NCBI RefSeq assembly: GCF_004795855.1
Contig: NZ_CP039252.1
Span: 1,612,001 to 1,676,000, forward strand
DNA: 64,000 bases
Source: Hydrogenophaga sp. PAMC20947
Lineage (GTDB): Bacteria; Pseudomonadota; Gammaproteobacteria; Burkholderiales; Burkholderiaceae_C
Reading direction: 5' to 3'
Below the pieces are notes generated by a model. The model had not been told where the DNA came from, searched no databases, and saw nothing but the letters and a program-made list of their open reading frames with translations. Shown piece by piece: positions 51,301 through 57,572 of the stretch (its first letter is position 1; the number at the start of each line of letters is the position of its first letter). A program made the translations under genes and the position numbers.

Positions 51301-51377
51301 GAGTTGGACGGTCTCTGGTCGAACAGGGCGAGCCCACTATTGGAAACAGCGCTCAAGCGTGAATTGCGGTCTGTGGG

Positions 51378-51470
51378 CGGAAGGGAGTGGGAGTCGAACC
51401 CACCAAGCGCGCTGAGCGCGCCTCGCCGGATTTGAAGTCCGGGCGCCCCACCGGGGTGCGCTTCCCTTCC
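51378..51470 (-). tRNA. selC: tRNA-Sec (anticodon TCA)
   Basis: The minus strand folds into the special selenocysteine tRNA. It has acceptor GGAAGGG/CCCTTCC, a long acceptor-T axis, anticodon arm CCGGACTTCAAATCCGG with anticodon TCA, a long variable arm (GGCGCGCTCAGCGCGCT region) and T arm TGGGTTCGACTCCCA. Discriminator is G, and a full CCA is not encoded. Length of about 93 is right for bacterial tRNA-Sec. It lies just downstream of selB. Confidence 0.96.
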
Positions 51471-51540
51471 GAATTTTTCGGCCACACCAATTCATCATAG
51501 CGGAGAGGAATCCGGCTTTGAAGATGGCTGGCTGATCTAA

Positions 51541-53439
51541 TCATGGTTGCATGGCGCGTCGTTCACCGATGAGTTTTGTTGCCGCAACGCGATCCAGAAA
51601 TTCCAACACCTGTACCGTCAGATTGCGTCCTATGCCGGATCGATCCCTGTACTGGGCGGCATCAAACATGCCATCAGCGGACTGGGCAGCGAGCGTTGCG
51701 GCAAGCTCGCTCAGTGCGACGACGGTGCTTGGCAAAAAAAACCGGTTCCTGGCGATTCGCACCAGGTGCCCGAGTGCACTCACCCGCAACAAGAATTCAA
51801 GGAGCCGCGGCGACTCCATATTAAGTGTGGTCGCAAGCTCCCCCACGATGGGTGGACGCAGCCCATGCGCTTGCAGAATTGCAGAGACCCGTTCAAGCAA
51901 CAACACGTCGTCAGCGTCCAGACGTGCACGATGCCCAGGGCGGCGCATGCTTAAGCCCTCTCGCACCAAGCTGCCATCGGTCAGCAAGGACTTCAAAGCG
52001 GCACGAAAAACCGCAGAAGCATTGCGTGCGGAAAGCTGGGAGGCCAACTCGGCGTCGGTGGGCCCCAGGCTGTCCGCCTGCTCACCATGCCAGGCGTCCA
52101 CTGCTGCACAAATAGCGACGCCCAGCGATGCCCATTGCGATGCCGCCACAGCCACCCGGCCCGAAGCAGTCGCTATCACCTGGATCTCCAGACCTTGCAG
52201 CAGCGAATCCAATTCATGGGTCGTGAGATTCCACGCCTGCCCAAAGCGCGCCAGATCGACCCCCTCGGGCGTGACCGCCATCAGGGCCATCAGACTGTCC
52301 GAGGCCGAGGGAAGCTCCATCGCCGACAGTTGCGCCAGGCGGGCTGGCTTTGAGCGCCCCCGCGTCACGCCAAAGGGATCTACAACAAAGCCGCCTGCGA
52401 TCGTGCGTTGCCCCGACTGATCCCGCAAAATGAAACGATCGCCTCGCATGGCACTGATGGGCTGATCCAGTACCAGTTGCGCCATGCCCGTCGACCCCGC
52501 GAGGATGGAGCGCTCGCCCAGCGTAGCCACCCGCGCGCTCAAGGCGGTCGCGCCAATGTGCAGATGCACAGGCGCCCAGTGCGTCAAAGCACGTGACTCC
52601 GATCCCAGCACACTGAGACGCACGTCCAGACGTGCCGTCGGCGCATGGGCCATCAGCGCAACAATCCAGTCGCCGCGCTGTACCTCATGCCTTTTCAAGC
52701 CAGTGCCGACGAGGTTCAATGCACACCGCTGACCGGCGCTCGCGAACAAGGTGGTTCGATTCTGTGCATGAATGCTGCGCACGCGCACCGGCGTTCCCTG
52801 TGGCGAGATCAGCAACTGGTCGCCCAGATTGACACGCCCCGAAAATACCGCGCCCGTCACCACAAGCCCCGCCCCGCCAATCGTGAAACACCGATCGACA
52901 GCCAGCCGGAAACTCCCTTGGGTCGAACGCCCCGTCCAGGCAAGATCCGCGGCCGTCAAATGGGTGCGCAAGGCTGCCAGGCCCTCACCGCTGGGCGTCG
53001 CAATCGGAAACACGGGCGCGCCTTGCAGCGCGCTCCTGGCCAGCAATGCAGCAATTTCAACCCGGACATCGGCCAACCGCTCAGGACTCACCCGGTCGAT
53101 TTTTGTGATGGCAACCGCCCCCTGCTCAATCCCCAGCAAATCAAGAATCGCAACGTGCTCCCGGGTCTGCGGCATGGGCCCGTCGTCTGCTGCAACAACC
53201 AACAAGGCGAAATCGACTGCCGCCACGCCCGCCAACATGTTGCGCACGAACCGCTCATGCCCTGGAACGTCGACAAAACCGATCGGCCATTCAGACCCGA
53301 AATCCGCGTAGGCGAAACCCAGGTCAATCGACATGCCTCGCCGCTTCTCTTCTGCAAGCCGGTCTGTGTCGGTGCCGGTCAGCGCCTTGACCAGTGTCGT
53401 TTTGCCATGATCCACATGGCCTGCGGTGGCGACGATCAT
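51541..53439 (-). CDS. selB: Selenocysteine-specific elongation factor SelB
   Basis: A translation factor that carries Sec-tRNA to UGA codons followed by a SECIS hairpin. The 632-residue protein has the GTPase G1 AGHVDHGKTTL, G3 DVPGHERF and G4 TKID, then EF-Tu-like domains 2 and 3. Four winged-helix repeats fill the C-terminal half (about residues 370-632), and these bind the SECIS RNA. Its start overlaps the selA stop as ATGA. With selA and selC it gives most of the selenocysteine decoding machinery. Confidence 0.97.
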   Translation of the reverse strand: MIVATAGHVDHGKTTLVKALTGTDTDRLAEEKRRGMSIDLGFAYADFGSEWPIGFVDVPGHERFVRNMLAGVAAVDFALLVVAADDGPMPQTREHVAILDLLGIEQGAVAITKIDRVSPERLADVRVEIAALLARSALQGAPVFPIATPSGEGLAALRTHLTAADLAWTGRSTQGSFRLAVDRCFTIGGAGLVVTGAVFSGRVNLGDQLLISPQGTPVRVRSIHAQNRTTLFASAGQRCALNLVGTGLKRHEVQRGDWIVALMAHAPTARLDVRLSVLGSESRALTHWAPVHLHIGATALSARVATLGERSILAGSTGMAQLVLDQPISAMRGDRFILRDQSGQRTIAGGFVVDPFGVTRGRSKPARLAQLSAMELPSASDSLMALMAVTPEGVDLARFGQAWNLTTHELDSLLQGLEIQVIATASGRVAVAASQWASLGVAICAAVDAWHGEQADSLGPTDAELASQLSARNASAVFRAALKSLLTDGSLVREGLSMRRPGHRARLDADDVLLLERVSAILQAHGLRPPIVGELATTLNMESPRLLEFLLRVSALGHLVRIARNRFFLPSTVVALSELAATLAAQSADGMFDAAQYRDRSGIGRNLTVQVLEFLDRVAATKLIGERRAMQP

Positions 53440-54830
53440 CCCTGCGAAGGCGTCAACAGAGCGAGAAAACCCGCCTCATCCTCGAGGCAGCGCAGATCAA
53501 GCAAAAAGGCGCCATCTGCAATCCGCCCGATCACGGGAACTGGAAGCTTCCGAAACTCCCCTGCCATCTGATCCAGCCAGCTTCCAGATCCCTTTTTGGG
53601 CCCTGCGGGTTTGATGCGCACCGCAAAGCTGGCAAGCAAATCAACGGGCAATGAGCCGCTTCCGATCTGACTCTGCACGGGAACCACGTCCACTTGCGCC
53701 CTTGCGCCCAGGTACCTTGACAACAAGGGCAACACACGGTGCGCCAAAGCTTCAATTTCGGTTGGCGGACGCGCCAGCAAACGCAAGACGGGGATGTGCT
53801 GGATCAGCCGTTCAGGGTTCGCATACAAGCGCAAGACCGCCCCCAATGCCGCGATCGTCAATTTGTCGCAGCGCATGGCCCGTTTCATCGGATTTTTTTT
53901 GATGACGGCCACCAAACTGGCCCTCCCGACGATGATGCCCGCCTGTGGTCCGCCCAGTAATTTGTCGCCACTGAAGGTCACCAGATCCGCACCTGAGGCG
54001 ATCGTCTGCGCTGGCGTCGGTTCGTGCGGCAAACCAAAACGGGCAAGGTCCACCAAAGTACCACTGCCCAGATCGACGACAAACGGCACACCGCGTTCTT
54101 GGCACAAGGCGCCAAGTTCCCGCGGATCGGCTTCTGCTGTAAAGCCTTGAATGTTGTAGTTGCTGGCATGCGCCTTGAGCACAAGAGCCGTTTTAACGCC
54201 CATCGCGTTTTCAAAATCGTGCAAATGCGTGCGGTTGGTCGTCCCCACTTCGTGCAGTTTGCAGCCTGCGCGCGCCATGATGTCGGGCAGACGAAAGGCG
54301 CCGCCAATCTCAATCAACTCCCCGCGCGAAACGATGACCTCGCGGCGCAGGGCCAGACTGTTCAGCGTCAGCAAGACGGCCGCGGCATTGTTGTTGACCA
54401 CCGTGGCGGCCTGCGCACCCGTGAGGCGACACAGCAAGGCCTCTACATGGTCATCGCGGTCACCCCGTTTGCCGGTCCCCAAATCATATTCAAGGTTCGA
54501 GGCGCCTGAGGCAACCTGCACCATGGCCTCGATGGCCTCTGGTGGCAACGGCGCGCGACCCAGGTTGGTGTGCAGCACCGTTCCTGTCAGGTTGAACACC
54601 TTGCGCAGGGAGGGCGCAACCACAGCATCAACGCGTGCGTGAATACTGTGGGTGATGCCTTCGTCGGTGCAGCCGTCTGCCCGCTCGCGCAGGAACGCCA
54701 ACTCGTCACGTGCGGCTTGCAGCACGAGCGGCCGTCCGTGCGCCTCGATCAAGGCTGAAATGGCCGGCCATCCCAAGACCCGATCGACGGCAGGCGGGCG
54801 AAGATGCACATCGCGATCATGGTCCGCCAT
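53436..54830 (-). CDS. selA: L-seryl-tRNA(Sec) selenium transferase
   Basis: A PLP enzyme that converts Ser-tRNA-Sec to Sec-tRNA-Sec with selenophosphate. The 464-residue protein has the N-terminal helical domain, FNLTGTVLHTNLGRAPLP, NNNAAAVLLTLNSLA and the PLP lysine in TFSGDKLLGGPQAG. Family length is about 460. It follows the UGSC selenoprotein gene by 59 bases and overlaps selB by 4, so all are probably on one transcript. selD, needed for selenophosphate, is not in the window. Confidence 0.97.
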   Translation of the reverse strand: MADHDRDVHLRPPAVDRVLGWPAISALIEAHGRPLVLQAARDELAFLRERADGCTDEGITHSIHARVDAVVAPSLRKVFNLTGTVLHTNLGRAPLPPEAIEAMVQVASGASNLEYDLGTGKRGDRDDHVEALLCRLTGAQAATVVNNNAAAVLLTLNSLALRREVIVSRGELIEIGGAFRLPDIMARAGCKLHEVGTTNRTHLHDFENAMGVKTALVLKAHASNYNIQGFTAEADPRELGALCQERGVPFVVDLGSGTLVDLARFGLPHEPTPAQTIASGADLVTFSGDKLLGGPQAGIIVGRASLVAVIKKNPMKRAMRCDKLTIAALGAVLRLYANPERLIQHIPVLRLLARPPTEIEALAHRVLPLLSRYLGARAQVDVVPVQSQIGSGSLPVDLLASFAVRIKPAGPKKGSGSWLDQMAGEFRKLPVPVIGRIADGAFLLDLRCLEDEAGFLALLTPSQG

Positions 54831-54889
54831 GCCGCCCTCCTGTGGCGTAAGGGGCCCTACACCCGGACGCAGCCCCCTCTCGGAAAAGA

Positions 54890-55414
54890 TCAGGCGGCTG
54901 TGATCGCCCGGATGATCTGCTCCAGGGCCTCGTCGGCGAGCGCACGCAACTCATCATCGGTGCGATCCTGAATCGGATGGCGCACGAACACCAGGGCTGG
55001 ATCGATTCCCAACACCTTGGACTGTATGGCTGCCGCCTGCACGAATTCGGTGGACGCAATGCCTACTCCTGGAATGCCCCGACCTTCGAGATCTGCAATG
55101 TCATGCATACAGCACGACGTACAGGACCCTCAGTCAGCCAAACCTTCAATCACCACTTTGCATTCAGCGGCTATTTGCTGTTTCAGTGCGACCGGCGCCA
55201 CACGTGTGAAGGTGGGCTTGCGGTAGCGTTTCACACCCACACCACGTGCAGAAAGCTGCTCGGCAATGCGGTCCAGAAAAATATTTCCGCGAGCCTTCGA
55301 AATATCAAGAATGCCAACGATCAGCCCCTCAAGGGTGGCCGGTCGCGGTTGCAGCGCGCGCACCGCTGGCGCGCGCTCGGCTGTCGGATCGAGAAGAATG
55401 TTGGATGCATTCAT
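54890..55414 (-). CDS. UGSC-family selenoprotein (in-frame UGA = Sec95)
   Basis: Two adjacent open frames join through one in-frame TGA (55130-55132) to give a 174-residue protein. The upstream part ends KVVIEGLAD and the downstream part continues GSCTSCCMHDIADLEGRG, so the junction reads U-G-S-C-T-S-C-C. This is the hallmark of the UGSC (seleno)protein family, in which selenocysteine and a nearby cysteine form a redox pair. Protein-like sequence continues on both sides (GLIVGILDISKARGNIFLDR before; GVGIASTEFVQAAAIQ after). The ATG has AAGGAG seven bases upstream and overlaps the preceding gene by ATGA. selA, selB and tRNA-Sec follow directly. The family's biochemical role is unknown. Confidence 0.93.
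55088..55132 (-). promoter_or_regulatory. Candidate bacterial SECIS element in the UGSC gene
   Basis: The RNA just after the UGA can form an outer helix from GAGG at the UGA (55131-55128) to UCUC (about 55091-55088), and an upper stem UGC/GCA (55114-55112 with 55096-55094) with GU/AU pairs around an AUGCAUGAC loop. Position fits a bacterial SECIS, but the typical GGU loop is not evident, so the fold is tentative. Confidence 0.45.
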
Positions 55415-56847
55415 GTTGTGATCTCCTTGGAAACAGGGGTTGATCCGGTTGCACCTGATGCGGCCCAACCGGCAATAACGGCAGAAAACAGTCCTGCTGT
55501 CCCACCGGCACGGACAATGAGGAGTCCACCGGGACGAAATTTTGGTACAAGTGTGCCAGCCAGGCTGCTCGGCAAACCCTCGGAGATGCCGCCCGCACCG
55601 ACAACCATCTCGTCGCCGGGCAGCAAGAGCAAGCGTTCAAGTTCTTCCAGCAGGCGGGCCTTTGACCAGCCCGCCTCAATGAAAACACGGCTGTGTTCGG
55701 GGGACACCACCAGCAATGCGTCGCCCGCCATTGCCAGCTTGGGATGATCAACCGCCCGCAGGCACAGCGCAAAGCTTCGAGCCAGAGAATCGGGCGTACG
55801 AGATTTTTGATCGACGATGCCTTGCACACCTTCAGCGGCGAACAGCGTGACGGTTGACGCGCCAGGTGCAAATCCCCGTTCGACCGACAAGGATGTCCAG
55901 TCGCTGTCTTCTGCCTCGGCAAAGCAAAAGCTGTACTTGCCCGGCGTCCCCAGCGCAGCCCTGTCCAGCTCGCCAGGGCGGCCACCACCCACGTTGCGAA
56001 TGACCAGTTGCAGGGCACGTCCTATGGAGGCATTGGCCCGGTTTCCCTGGCCAAGCGCATTGACGCCAGAATTCATGCCAACCGCCTTGGCCACAGGTCC
56101 ATTGACAATGACCAGCGGCCCACAAAACATGGTGGTACACAACACACCATGCATGCCGAACTCATCCATCAGCGCGGCCTCGACGGCTGCCAGCACGACA
56201 GGCATGTATTCTGGCTTGCAGCCTGCCATCACGGCGTTGATGGCCACCTTCTCGACGGTGCACGGCGCAAGGTCTGGCGGCATCATGCCCAGCATTTCGT
56301 CTGGCGCGCGCGTGGTTCCGGCCAACATGCGCAGAACGCGCGCCTGGGTCGGTGGCACCACCGGCAAGCCATCGGTCCAGCCTCGATCAAAGCAGGCCTC
56401 CATCAGGTCTTCGCCGTCCCCGAGTTCAACTTGACGGGAAGAAAATTTCACGCCCCCGAAACGAATGGCGAGTTCCTCAGCGATTCCGGGGTCCAAGGTT
56501 TTGGAGCCACAGCCTGGACGAACAGCCGGCAGCTCACACCCGAGGTCTGGGACGCCAGAAATCCGCTGCCAGTCTTCGCGATGCCAACCATAGGCACGCT
56601 CGACTTCCTGCCCATCCTTCACCCGAATCAATGTAGGCACGAACTCGGTGTTGAGCCGGTAGGAACTTTCCAGCGTGTCATCAAAAAAAACGTTCGCAAC
56701 ACCGTCGGCATAGGCAGGATCGTCCTGAACATAAACCGTGAGCGGCGCATCGCTTTTTGCCAACTGGCGAACGAGCGGCTCGACCAGCATGCAGGTCGGG
56801 CAATCGCGTTTCACGATGATGATCAAACCATTGTGTAGAGGATGCAT
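55411..56847 (-). CDS. Thioredoxin-like fusion protein coupled to the UGSC selenoprotein
   Basis: A 478-residue protein. Residues about 5-85 are a thioredoxin fold with active-site VKRDCPTCMLVEPL (Cys16-x-x-Cys19) and a cis-proline region FVPTLIRVKDGQEVERAYGW. The remaining 350 residues form a conserved domain with WTDGLPVVPPTQARVLRMLAGT, EKVAINAVMAGCKPEYMPVVLAAVEA, and GNRANASIGRALQLVIRNVGG; I do not know its function. ATG at 56847 is preferred over a TTG five codons upstream. The stop overlaps the UGSC start in an ATGA, which points to a tight functional pair, perhaps reductant and selenoenzyme. Confidence 0.8.
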   Translation of the reverse strand: MHPLHNGLIIIVKRDCPTCMLVEPLVRQLAKSDAPLTVYVQDDPAYADGVANVFFDDTLESSYRLNTEFVPTLIRVKDGQEVERAYGWHREDWQRISGVPDLGCELPAVRPGCGSKTLDPGIAEELAIRFGGVKFSSRQVELGDGEDLMEACFDRGWTDGLPVVPPTQARVLRMLAGTTRAPDEMLGMMPPDLAPCTVEKVAINAVMAGCKPEYMPVVLAAVEAALMDEFGMHGVLCTTMFCGPLVIVNGPVAKAVGMNSGVNALGQGNRANASIGRALQLVIRNVGGGRPGELDRAALGTPGKYSFCFAEAEDSDWTSLSVERGFAPGASTVTLFAAEGVQGIVDQKSRTPDSLARSFALCLRAVDHPKLAMAGDALLVVSPEHSRVFIEAGWSKARLLEELERLLLLPGDEMVVGAGGISEGLPSSLAGTLVPKFRPGGLLIVRAGGTAGLFSAVIAGWAASGATGSTPVSKEITT

Positions 56848-57572
56848 GGATGCCGTTCGCAATGCGTTGCCTTTGTGAATATTCAGACCGAATCAACGGC
56901 ACCAAAACGATGTGGGCCTTGCGTTCGATCGCCTACCCGGCATCCACCGGTTTTCCAAAAGGCTTCGCGAATCGATCTCGCTAAGCACAGTGACTGCTCA
57001 GAGTCGTCGGTCGGAAAAATCTGTGCACCGGCAAAAAGCCTCAATCGGCTGATCCAAAAACGATCTGCTTCGCGCGCCTCTCCAGAAACAACGCAAAACT
57101 GCATCAGCAGTCGATGGCATTGTGCTTTCCCGGGCAGAAGCCGACTGTCGCGAAAGTTCAAGGAGTACCCGCTCCTGGTCGACTCTGACCCAGCGGCCGC
57201 CACCAGCTCAAGCCGACCCATGTCTGCTTGCAGCAGTTCCCGATGGAAACCCAGTACCTGGCAGCAACGGTGGCTCCGTACATTCCTGCGACCGCCAGTC
57301 TATGGCAGGGAGTAGCCGCATGGCCCATGCACCTTCTGCACCCGCATGTTGTCGATGCAGCTCAACTCCCATCAACCCAGACACCCATCGAGTAATCTTG
57401 AACCCGGGCTTCCACTTTTGATGGGTACGTCTACAGGGGGCAGGTCACTGCCGTGACCAACACTGCCTAGCAGGCCATGACGTCAATCCGCAAGCTAACA
57501 CGAGTCCCCCCCGACCATGGGTCATACAGCTTGATCCGATCAATTGCCTACAGATAGCCCACAAGCATCAGA
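56848..57572. other. Long intergenic region upstream of the selenoprotein operon
   Basis: No gene can be supported in these 725 bases. A minus-strand frame (56883-57221 and its upstream continuation) gives 112 residues or more without recognised motifs or a ribosome site, and plus-strand frames look random. The promoter of the selenoprotein operon should lie near 56850-56950. Decayed coding sequence is possible. Confidence 0.45.

Follow-up and report, generated by a model that had tools for sequence, protein, structure and literature searches.

Gene clusters of the SelABC-formate dehydrogenase (SelABC-FDH) type encode a selenocysteine (Sec) enzyme beside the genes needed to decode it. The UGSC selenoprotein family was in print by 2008, when a survey of Global Ocean Sampling (GOS) data, in the portion available to us, counted 255 Sec-containing UGSC sequences, placed the family among the commoner selenoprotein families of aquatic metagenomes, and reported UGSC fused to a domain named Unknown_1 (PMC2398784); the accessible part of a 2026 review counts UGSC among the families whose function is largely uncharacterised (PMC13188914). 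For glycine reduction, excerpts of the literature give an electron path from NADPH through thioredoxin reductase, thioredoxin and GrdA to GrdB (PMC3091704) and a Sec believed to be converted into a carboxymethyl selenoether, which thiols then cleave (PMC10298544), and a GrdB-like operon has been linked to fluoroacetate defluorination (PMC10838667, in part). Here we describe a locus in a 64,000 nt stretch of Hydrogenophaga sp. PAMC20947 (the window, meaning the whole stretch analysed) in which a partner gene with a thioredoxin-like N-terminus and a UGSC gene are followed by selA, selB and tRNA-Sec, and we propose, with a probability of roughly 0.6, that the two proteins form a two-subunit, Sec-dependent, thioredoxin-driven reductase that would cleave a bond in a small substrate.

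Coordinates given here are positions in the window, and the pair and the whole set of sel genes lie on its minus strand. The UGSC gene (55414..54890) contains an in-frame UGA (55132..55130) at codon 95 of 174 which, as an earlier note on this DNA proposed, joins two open frames into one protein with the motif UGSCTSCC. The joined protein matches NF041046 at 147.6 bits (cut-off 125) and PF24696 at 146.9 bits (cut-off 25), in both cases across the UGA, and the family motif U/C-G-S-C falls at the Sec codon (UGA95-GSC); in its motif, its in-frame UGA and a full-length match over both cut-offs it is thus like the described UGSC family. Its start overlaps the stop of the partner gene in an ATGA (55414..55411), the coupling that the same note described; the partner gene begins with ATG and encodes 478 residues (56847..55411). 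Unlike the UGSC fusion reported in 2008, the partner here is a separate gene with an N-terminal thioredoxin. One UGSC match and one partner match are present in the whole genome.

Relatives were collected by scanning genome contigs with a profile of the partner, which gave at least 543 matches, from which 80 loci were kept. A UGSC site could be read in 71 of these, as UGA in 68, UAG in two and Cys in one, i.e. a Sec codon in 70 of 71. The two UAG loci belong to Blastococcus and Geodermatophilus, of a family for which the accessible text of PMC5330540 already describes UGSC proteins with UAG-coded Sec. The Cys case is Elioraea rosea, and a second Cys form occurs in a genome of the same order as the window (G089), so that Cys homologues of the kind the earlier note suggested looking for do exist. 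In 66 of the 71 loci UGSC immediately follows the partner, on the same strand; in three it is ~4-7 kb away, and in two it lies upstream on the opposite strand. Among the nine loci without a readable site, one has a UGSC match cut by a contig end and three stop with the partner or just beyond it (the other five are taken up below). Across the stretch following the UGA, the window differs from its nearest relative, of the same genus (G005), by 12 synonymous and 2 nonsynonymous codon changes (3/0/12 by codon position), and from the more distant G077 by 30 synonymous and 21 nonsynonymous changes. C98, C101, D105 and H146 are invariant in 65 of 65 UGSC sequences, which were chosen for having a UGA, so that U95 itself is fixed by selection of the rows. 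A search for selA in 33 genomes (12 UGSC relatives besides our own, and 21 of 34 locus genomes) found it above cut-off in all 29 that have a UGA or UAG form of UGSC; among the four in which Cys forms alone were seen, it was absent in G037 and Elioraea and present in G027 and G089.

A 7 bp hairpin with a 5 nt loop (55100..55118), presumably the upper stem-loop of a bacterial Sec insertion sequence (SECIS), is predicted by folding 3' of the UGA at nt 15-21/27-33. Its thermodynamic signal depends on the stretch folded, with z -2.1 for 56 nt and unremarkable values for a shorter stretch (-0.9) and for one relative (-0.3). Because four of the hairpin pairs are largely set by the protein motif, only the three wobble-position pairs were tested, over 106 distinct Sec sites and 2000 permutations. 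Pair 21-27 is intact in 106/106 sites, 83 of them C-G and 22 G-C, with no permutation as good; pair 18-30 in 105/106 (85 permutations as good); and pair 15-33 in 89/106 (4 as good). The C-G to G-C switch at 21-27 tracks the UGSCTSC and UGSCTSW subfamilies and may therefore represent few events. Both of two Cys sites break 15-33 and one breaks 18-30, while both retain 21-27. Were the UGA a true stop, the two halves would be separate or decayed genes, and public annotation can indeed split such genes at the UGA, as on plasmid pFER4 of Paracoccus ferrooxidans, where a UGA-containing UGSC gene (L217 5444-6013) is entered as two hypothetical proteins (selB lies on the same plasmid). That reading is opposed by the hairpin, by the co-occurrence with selA, by the Cys homologues, and by retention of the UGA across phyla with coding sequence conserved on both sides, the reverse of the missing downstream conservation that the earlier note said would overturn its proposal; we give it almost no weight and regard it as already refuted on sequence grounds. 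Sec insertion at UGA95 is, on the same comparisons, close to certain.

UGSC was also compared with the Sec-containing subunits of D-proline and glycine reductase. Alignment of 26 UGSC sequences with 19 PrdB/GrdB-like proteins by hhalign placed Sec on Sec (E 1.5e-5, probability 79%), and a rerun scored 43.2 versus at most 23.5 in 100 column shuffles. A 78-row UGSC profile, made from the 104-row alignment of a fusion model (A4) by removing 26 rows of two-gene partners whose thioredoxin part had been aligned to UGSC columns, again set Sec on Sec with E 1.6e-7 and probability 94%, scoring 53.3 versus at most 19.3 in 100 shuffles. The UxxCxxC motif, as GrdB's is written in the available part of PMC13188914, is found in UGSC as U95, C98 and C101 in 65/65 sequences, and the homology extends over ~100 residues that include the UxxC site, a GIP strand and an HP/FP loop. 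These alignments identify UGSC, at the level of sequence, as distantly homologous to the Sec domain of PrdB/GrdB. Unlike GrdB and PrdB (PF07355, TIGR01917, TIGR04483), UGSC falls under the family cut-offs, is much shorter than GrdB, and, with its partner, occurs also in lineages known to be aerobic, such as Geodermatophilus and Pseudonocardia. PF07355 itself has no match in the Hydrogenophaga genome; matches to it occur in 14 of 34 genomes with UGSC or partner (L174-L201), mostly as PrdB-like Sec proteins whose motif is of the U-P-x-C type.

A natural Cys fusion, modelled with the 104-row alignment in which the 26 misplaced rows were still included (pLDDT 93.7), shows beta-alpha repeats, where the literature views UGSC as a thioredoxin fold; the best structural matches of the UGSC domain were a designed protein and PurE, and the absence of a thioredoxin row excludes nothing. 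FtsZ, the sole Foldseek match in PDB at E<=1e-3, was disregarded at TM 0.15-0.16, and Foldseek against BFVD gave nothing at E<=1e-3. The ranking of the domain near PurE and other alpha/beta domains would suit a protein that binds its substrate or modifies it as a lyase or isomerase, with Sec in some other role (e.g. metal binding) and thioredoxin serving just to keep Sec reduced, as would the occurrence of some fusions with neither Sec nor Cys at the site and of UGSC paralogues among diverse catabolic genes. We think such a protein improbable.

The partner was in turn examined by profile. Its first 96 residues (56560..56847) include C16-P-T-C19, and a 27-sequence orthologue profile of this segment (A6) matches 48 PDB sequences at E<=1, all 48 named thioredoxin, the best being 2o85 (profile 14-93, E 7.9e-4) with the CxxC on the active site; single-sequence Pfam scans gave weaker matches, to TraF in 5/27 and Thioredoxin_2 in 1/27 (E 0.01). 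By profile, the N-terminus is therefore a thioredoxin domain, in agreement with the earlier description of a thioredoxin-like fusion protein. The partner domain proper (residues 133-478, ~345 aa, 55414..56451; alignment A1) carries the invariant C210, and across 73/73 aligned orthologues C16, C19, C113 and C210 are all invariant. Beyond the thioredoxin domain no Pfam or NCBIfam name applies, and a single-sequence AlphaFold model (pLDDT 34.5) offers no basis for a fold of the partner domain.

Several lines of sequence evidence establish the two proteins as partners. Of 147 genomes, 13 (our own included) have homologues of the partner, precisely the 13 that have UGSC; both proteins were found by BLAST in 37 of 40 loci from relatives, and in at least 8 of these 40 they share one reading frame, six times with UGA and twice with Cys. 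A search with one natural Cys fusion (L069) matched 856 proteins. Two other fusions, from Vibrio europaeus (L218 5368-7053) and Sporomusa termitida (L224 4320-6044), read D-M-G-T-S at the UGSC site.

Gene neighbourhoods elsewhere point to the source of electrons. Of 24 plasmid matches of the partner we examined 15, 14 of them annotated, and five of the 14 annotated stretches have a TRX_reduct-family gene within ~2 kb of the pair: Arthrobacter has trxB-trxA-partner-UGSC in one direction, Roseovarius has partner-UGSC-trxB, Variovorax SRS16 has trxB within the same gene run as the pair, and in V. boronicumulans and Haloterrigena the gene is below the TIGR01292 cut-off. TrxB also lies downstream of a partner-UGSC fusion in a congeneric genome (G037), and a further locus (L078) has a TRX_reduct gene, below cut-off, near the pair. 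Because trxB and trxA are linked to the pair and the partner carries a thioredoxin domain, the same reductant appears to be a neighbour elsewhere and a fused thioredoxin here. Glycine reductase likewise has thioredoxin and thioredoxin reductase as its electron source.

Together these features make a two-subunit, thioredoxin-fed reductase likely. UGSC would carry the catalytic UxxCxxC site on its PrdB/GrdB-homologous domain, and the partner, its nearly constant companion, probably holds the substrate. Since the thioredoxin domain is fused to the partner in this lineage, the proposed electron path runs through C16/C19: NADPH would reduce thioredoxin reductase, which would pass electrons to the Trx domain, then to C113 or C210 of the partner and C98/C101 of UGSC, and finally to Sec95. 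By analogy with GrdB/PrdB, the Sec95 selenolate would then attack the activated carbon of a small substrate, the leaving group would depart, and the selenium adduct would be resolved by thiols to a selenenylsulfide. Cleavage of a C-X bond in the manner of GrdB is a plausible inference, drawn by analogy from the homologous Sec site and the same electron source, which suggest that another substrate undergoes chemistry of the same type. The Far fluoroacetate reductase system of Synergistota, GrdB-like and of a different family from UGSC, provides, in the part of its description available to us, an instance of GrdB-related components with a non-amino-acid substrate (PMC10838667); NCBIfam holds a FarE model. 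The earlier note spoke of a redox system of unknown function: its two-gene selenoenzyme stands in sequence terms, and the function can be narrowed, by inference, to that of a PrdB/GrdB-like reductase dependent on thioredoxin.

The thioredoxin domain and trxB would also fit an enzyme of another kind, a thiol peroxidase or one of general redox repair, with peroxides or disulfides reduced by Sec95 and Sec itself recycled by the fused thioredoxin. Most Sec families with such motifs in the GOS survey, as far as its accessible text goes, are thiol oxidoreductases or Trx-fold proteins (PMC2398784), and peroxidase activity of GrdB itself is reported by work cited, by title, in PMC3091704 (available in part). 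We consider a peroxidase or repair enzyme unlikely.

Several observations weigh against the proposed reductase. Direct family searches give UGSC 12.9 bits with TIGR01917 (cut-off 602.2) and no PF07355 match at E 0.1; hhalign against one full GrdB-like protein alone yields probability 4% and E 0.01; and 18 of the 19 comparison rows are PrdB-like, of which two tested fall below the PrdB cut-off. In glycine reductase a GrdE-like protein supplies the pyruvoyl group, and the partner profile showed no similarity to the one GrdE-like sequence with which it was compared. Five of the 80 loci have sequence downstream of the partner in which no UGSC was found, and in the Vibrio europaeus and Sporomusa fusions the site lacks both Sec and Cys. 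TrxB genes lie near the pair in 5/14 plasmid stretches only, two of them below cut-off, with none near in most other contexts seen, and no neighbouring gene points to a substrate.

This last point was pursued among paralogues, for which 58 neighbours were tallied by Pfam from 116 candidates (TctC genes and seven loci left out). No Pfam family occurs in more than 2/58, a number reached by CoA transferases, MmgE/PrpD, TauD and thiamine pyrophosphate (TPP) enzymes; such varied catabolic neighbours fit many substrates and name none. Bug/TctC receptors near the paralogues (0.16 per kb within 2 kb versus 0.03-0.10 farther out, on crude gene calls) were not used as a substrate clue, being weak: in five of these genomes such receptors number at least 127 per genome. 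A thiolase-like gene, assigned by eye, lies downstream in 8/77 loci, all proteobacterial records. Unusually large sets of Sec paralogues occur in three genomes of the same order as the window, with 17 (G092), 20 (G141) and 9 (G133) UGSC matches, the listed ones each with one in-frame UGA, and a UGA-containing UGSC gene lies on the IncP conjugative plasmid p2-T1 of Acidovorax sp. T1 (L221, near 4662). Beyond the reductase itself, we raise tentatively, as possible rather than probable, the idea that UGSC and its partner make up a superfamily of selenoreductases fed by thioredoxin, a large and largely aerobic counterpart of glycine/proline reductase, whose copies (17-20 matches in single betaproteobacterial genomes) would cleave C-X bonds of different small acids and have spread on plasmids and as a sel cassette.

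At the present locus the pair shares one cassette with its decoding genes. Downstream of UGSC, as the earlier note had it, are selA (54830..53436; TIGR00474, 565.4 bits), selB (53439..51541; TIGR00475, 390.5 bits) and tRNA-Sec (selC, anticodon TCA, 51470..51376; ARAGORN and Rfam RF01852, 73.5 bits). Two selD genes are above cut-off in the genome, one a long fusion whose 770 aa frame (L165, genome positions 3158925-3159848) joins SelD to an NADH-dehydrogenase-like part (assigned by eye), the other a separate SelD gene. The absence of a neighbouring formate dehydrogenase also holds, with none within the cassette; of five PF00384 genes in the whole genome, none has an in-frame UGA in its coding part as read around the match, and the one that we take to be FDH-like has Cys at what is presumably the Sec position. 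Like SelABC-FDH clusters, then, a Sec enzyme adjoins its decoding genes; unlike them, the client is UGSC with its partner.

Window positions 51375..57175, comprising tRNA-Sec, selB, selA, UGSC, the partner and ~300 bp upstream of it, match G005 as one contiguous block at 86.5% identity. In that genome the block lies near 4.09 Mb, apart from the tRNA-His/ppiD flank, which is at 3.07 Mb, indicating that the 5.8 kb cassette moves as one unit and lending support to the earlier picture of a two-gene selenoenzyme travelling with its decoding genes. In G034 and G039 the tRNA-His/ppiD flank adjoins genes located at 19-27 kb of the window, so that ~30 kb of the window (27587-57612), between a conserved block and tRNA-His/ppiD, is variable relative to these genomes; it holds the sel cassette and a hut cluster (assigned by eye). 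A search for long exact repeats of the tRNA-His region found none. Sel genes are commonly, though not generally, linked to the pair: selA and/or selB stand beside it in the same direction in 10/80 loci (five downstream, five upstream; selA only in L113), and selB is its commonest neighbour family, at 9/77 loci.

The selenoprotein family was already known; what is new here is the homology of UGSC to PrdB/GrdB, the thioredoxin N-terminus of the partner, and the linkage to trxB/trxA. Neither that homology, nor a second gene for the partner, nor the link with trxB/trxA was found stated in the UGSC literature available to us in part, most subscription journals lying outside its coverage, and the homology is not stated in the accessible portions of PMC2398784, PMC9312934, PMC13188914, PMC5330540, PMC5029168, PMC7539508 and PMC9402790. 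With a PrdB/GrdB relationship, a nearly constant partner and a trxB/trxA linkage, UGSC becomes an enzyme open to direct test. Through it aerobic bacteria could have a selenium chemistry of the Stickland type, and it could account for the retention of many Sec genes by some genomes. The compact cassette, for its part, illustrates in nature how a selenoenzyme can travel together with its decoding genes.
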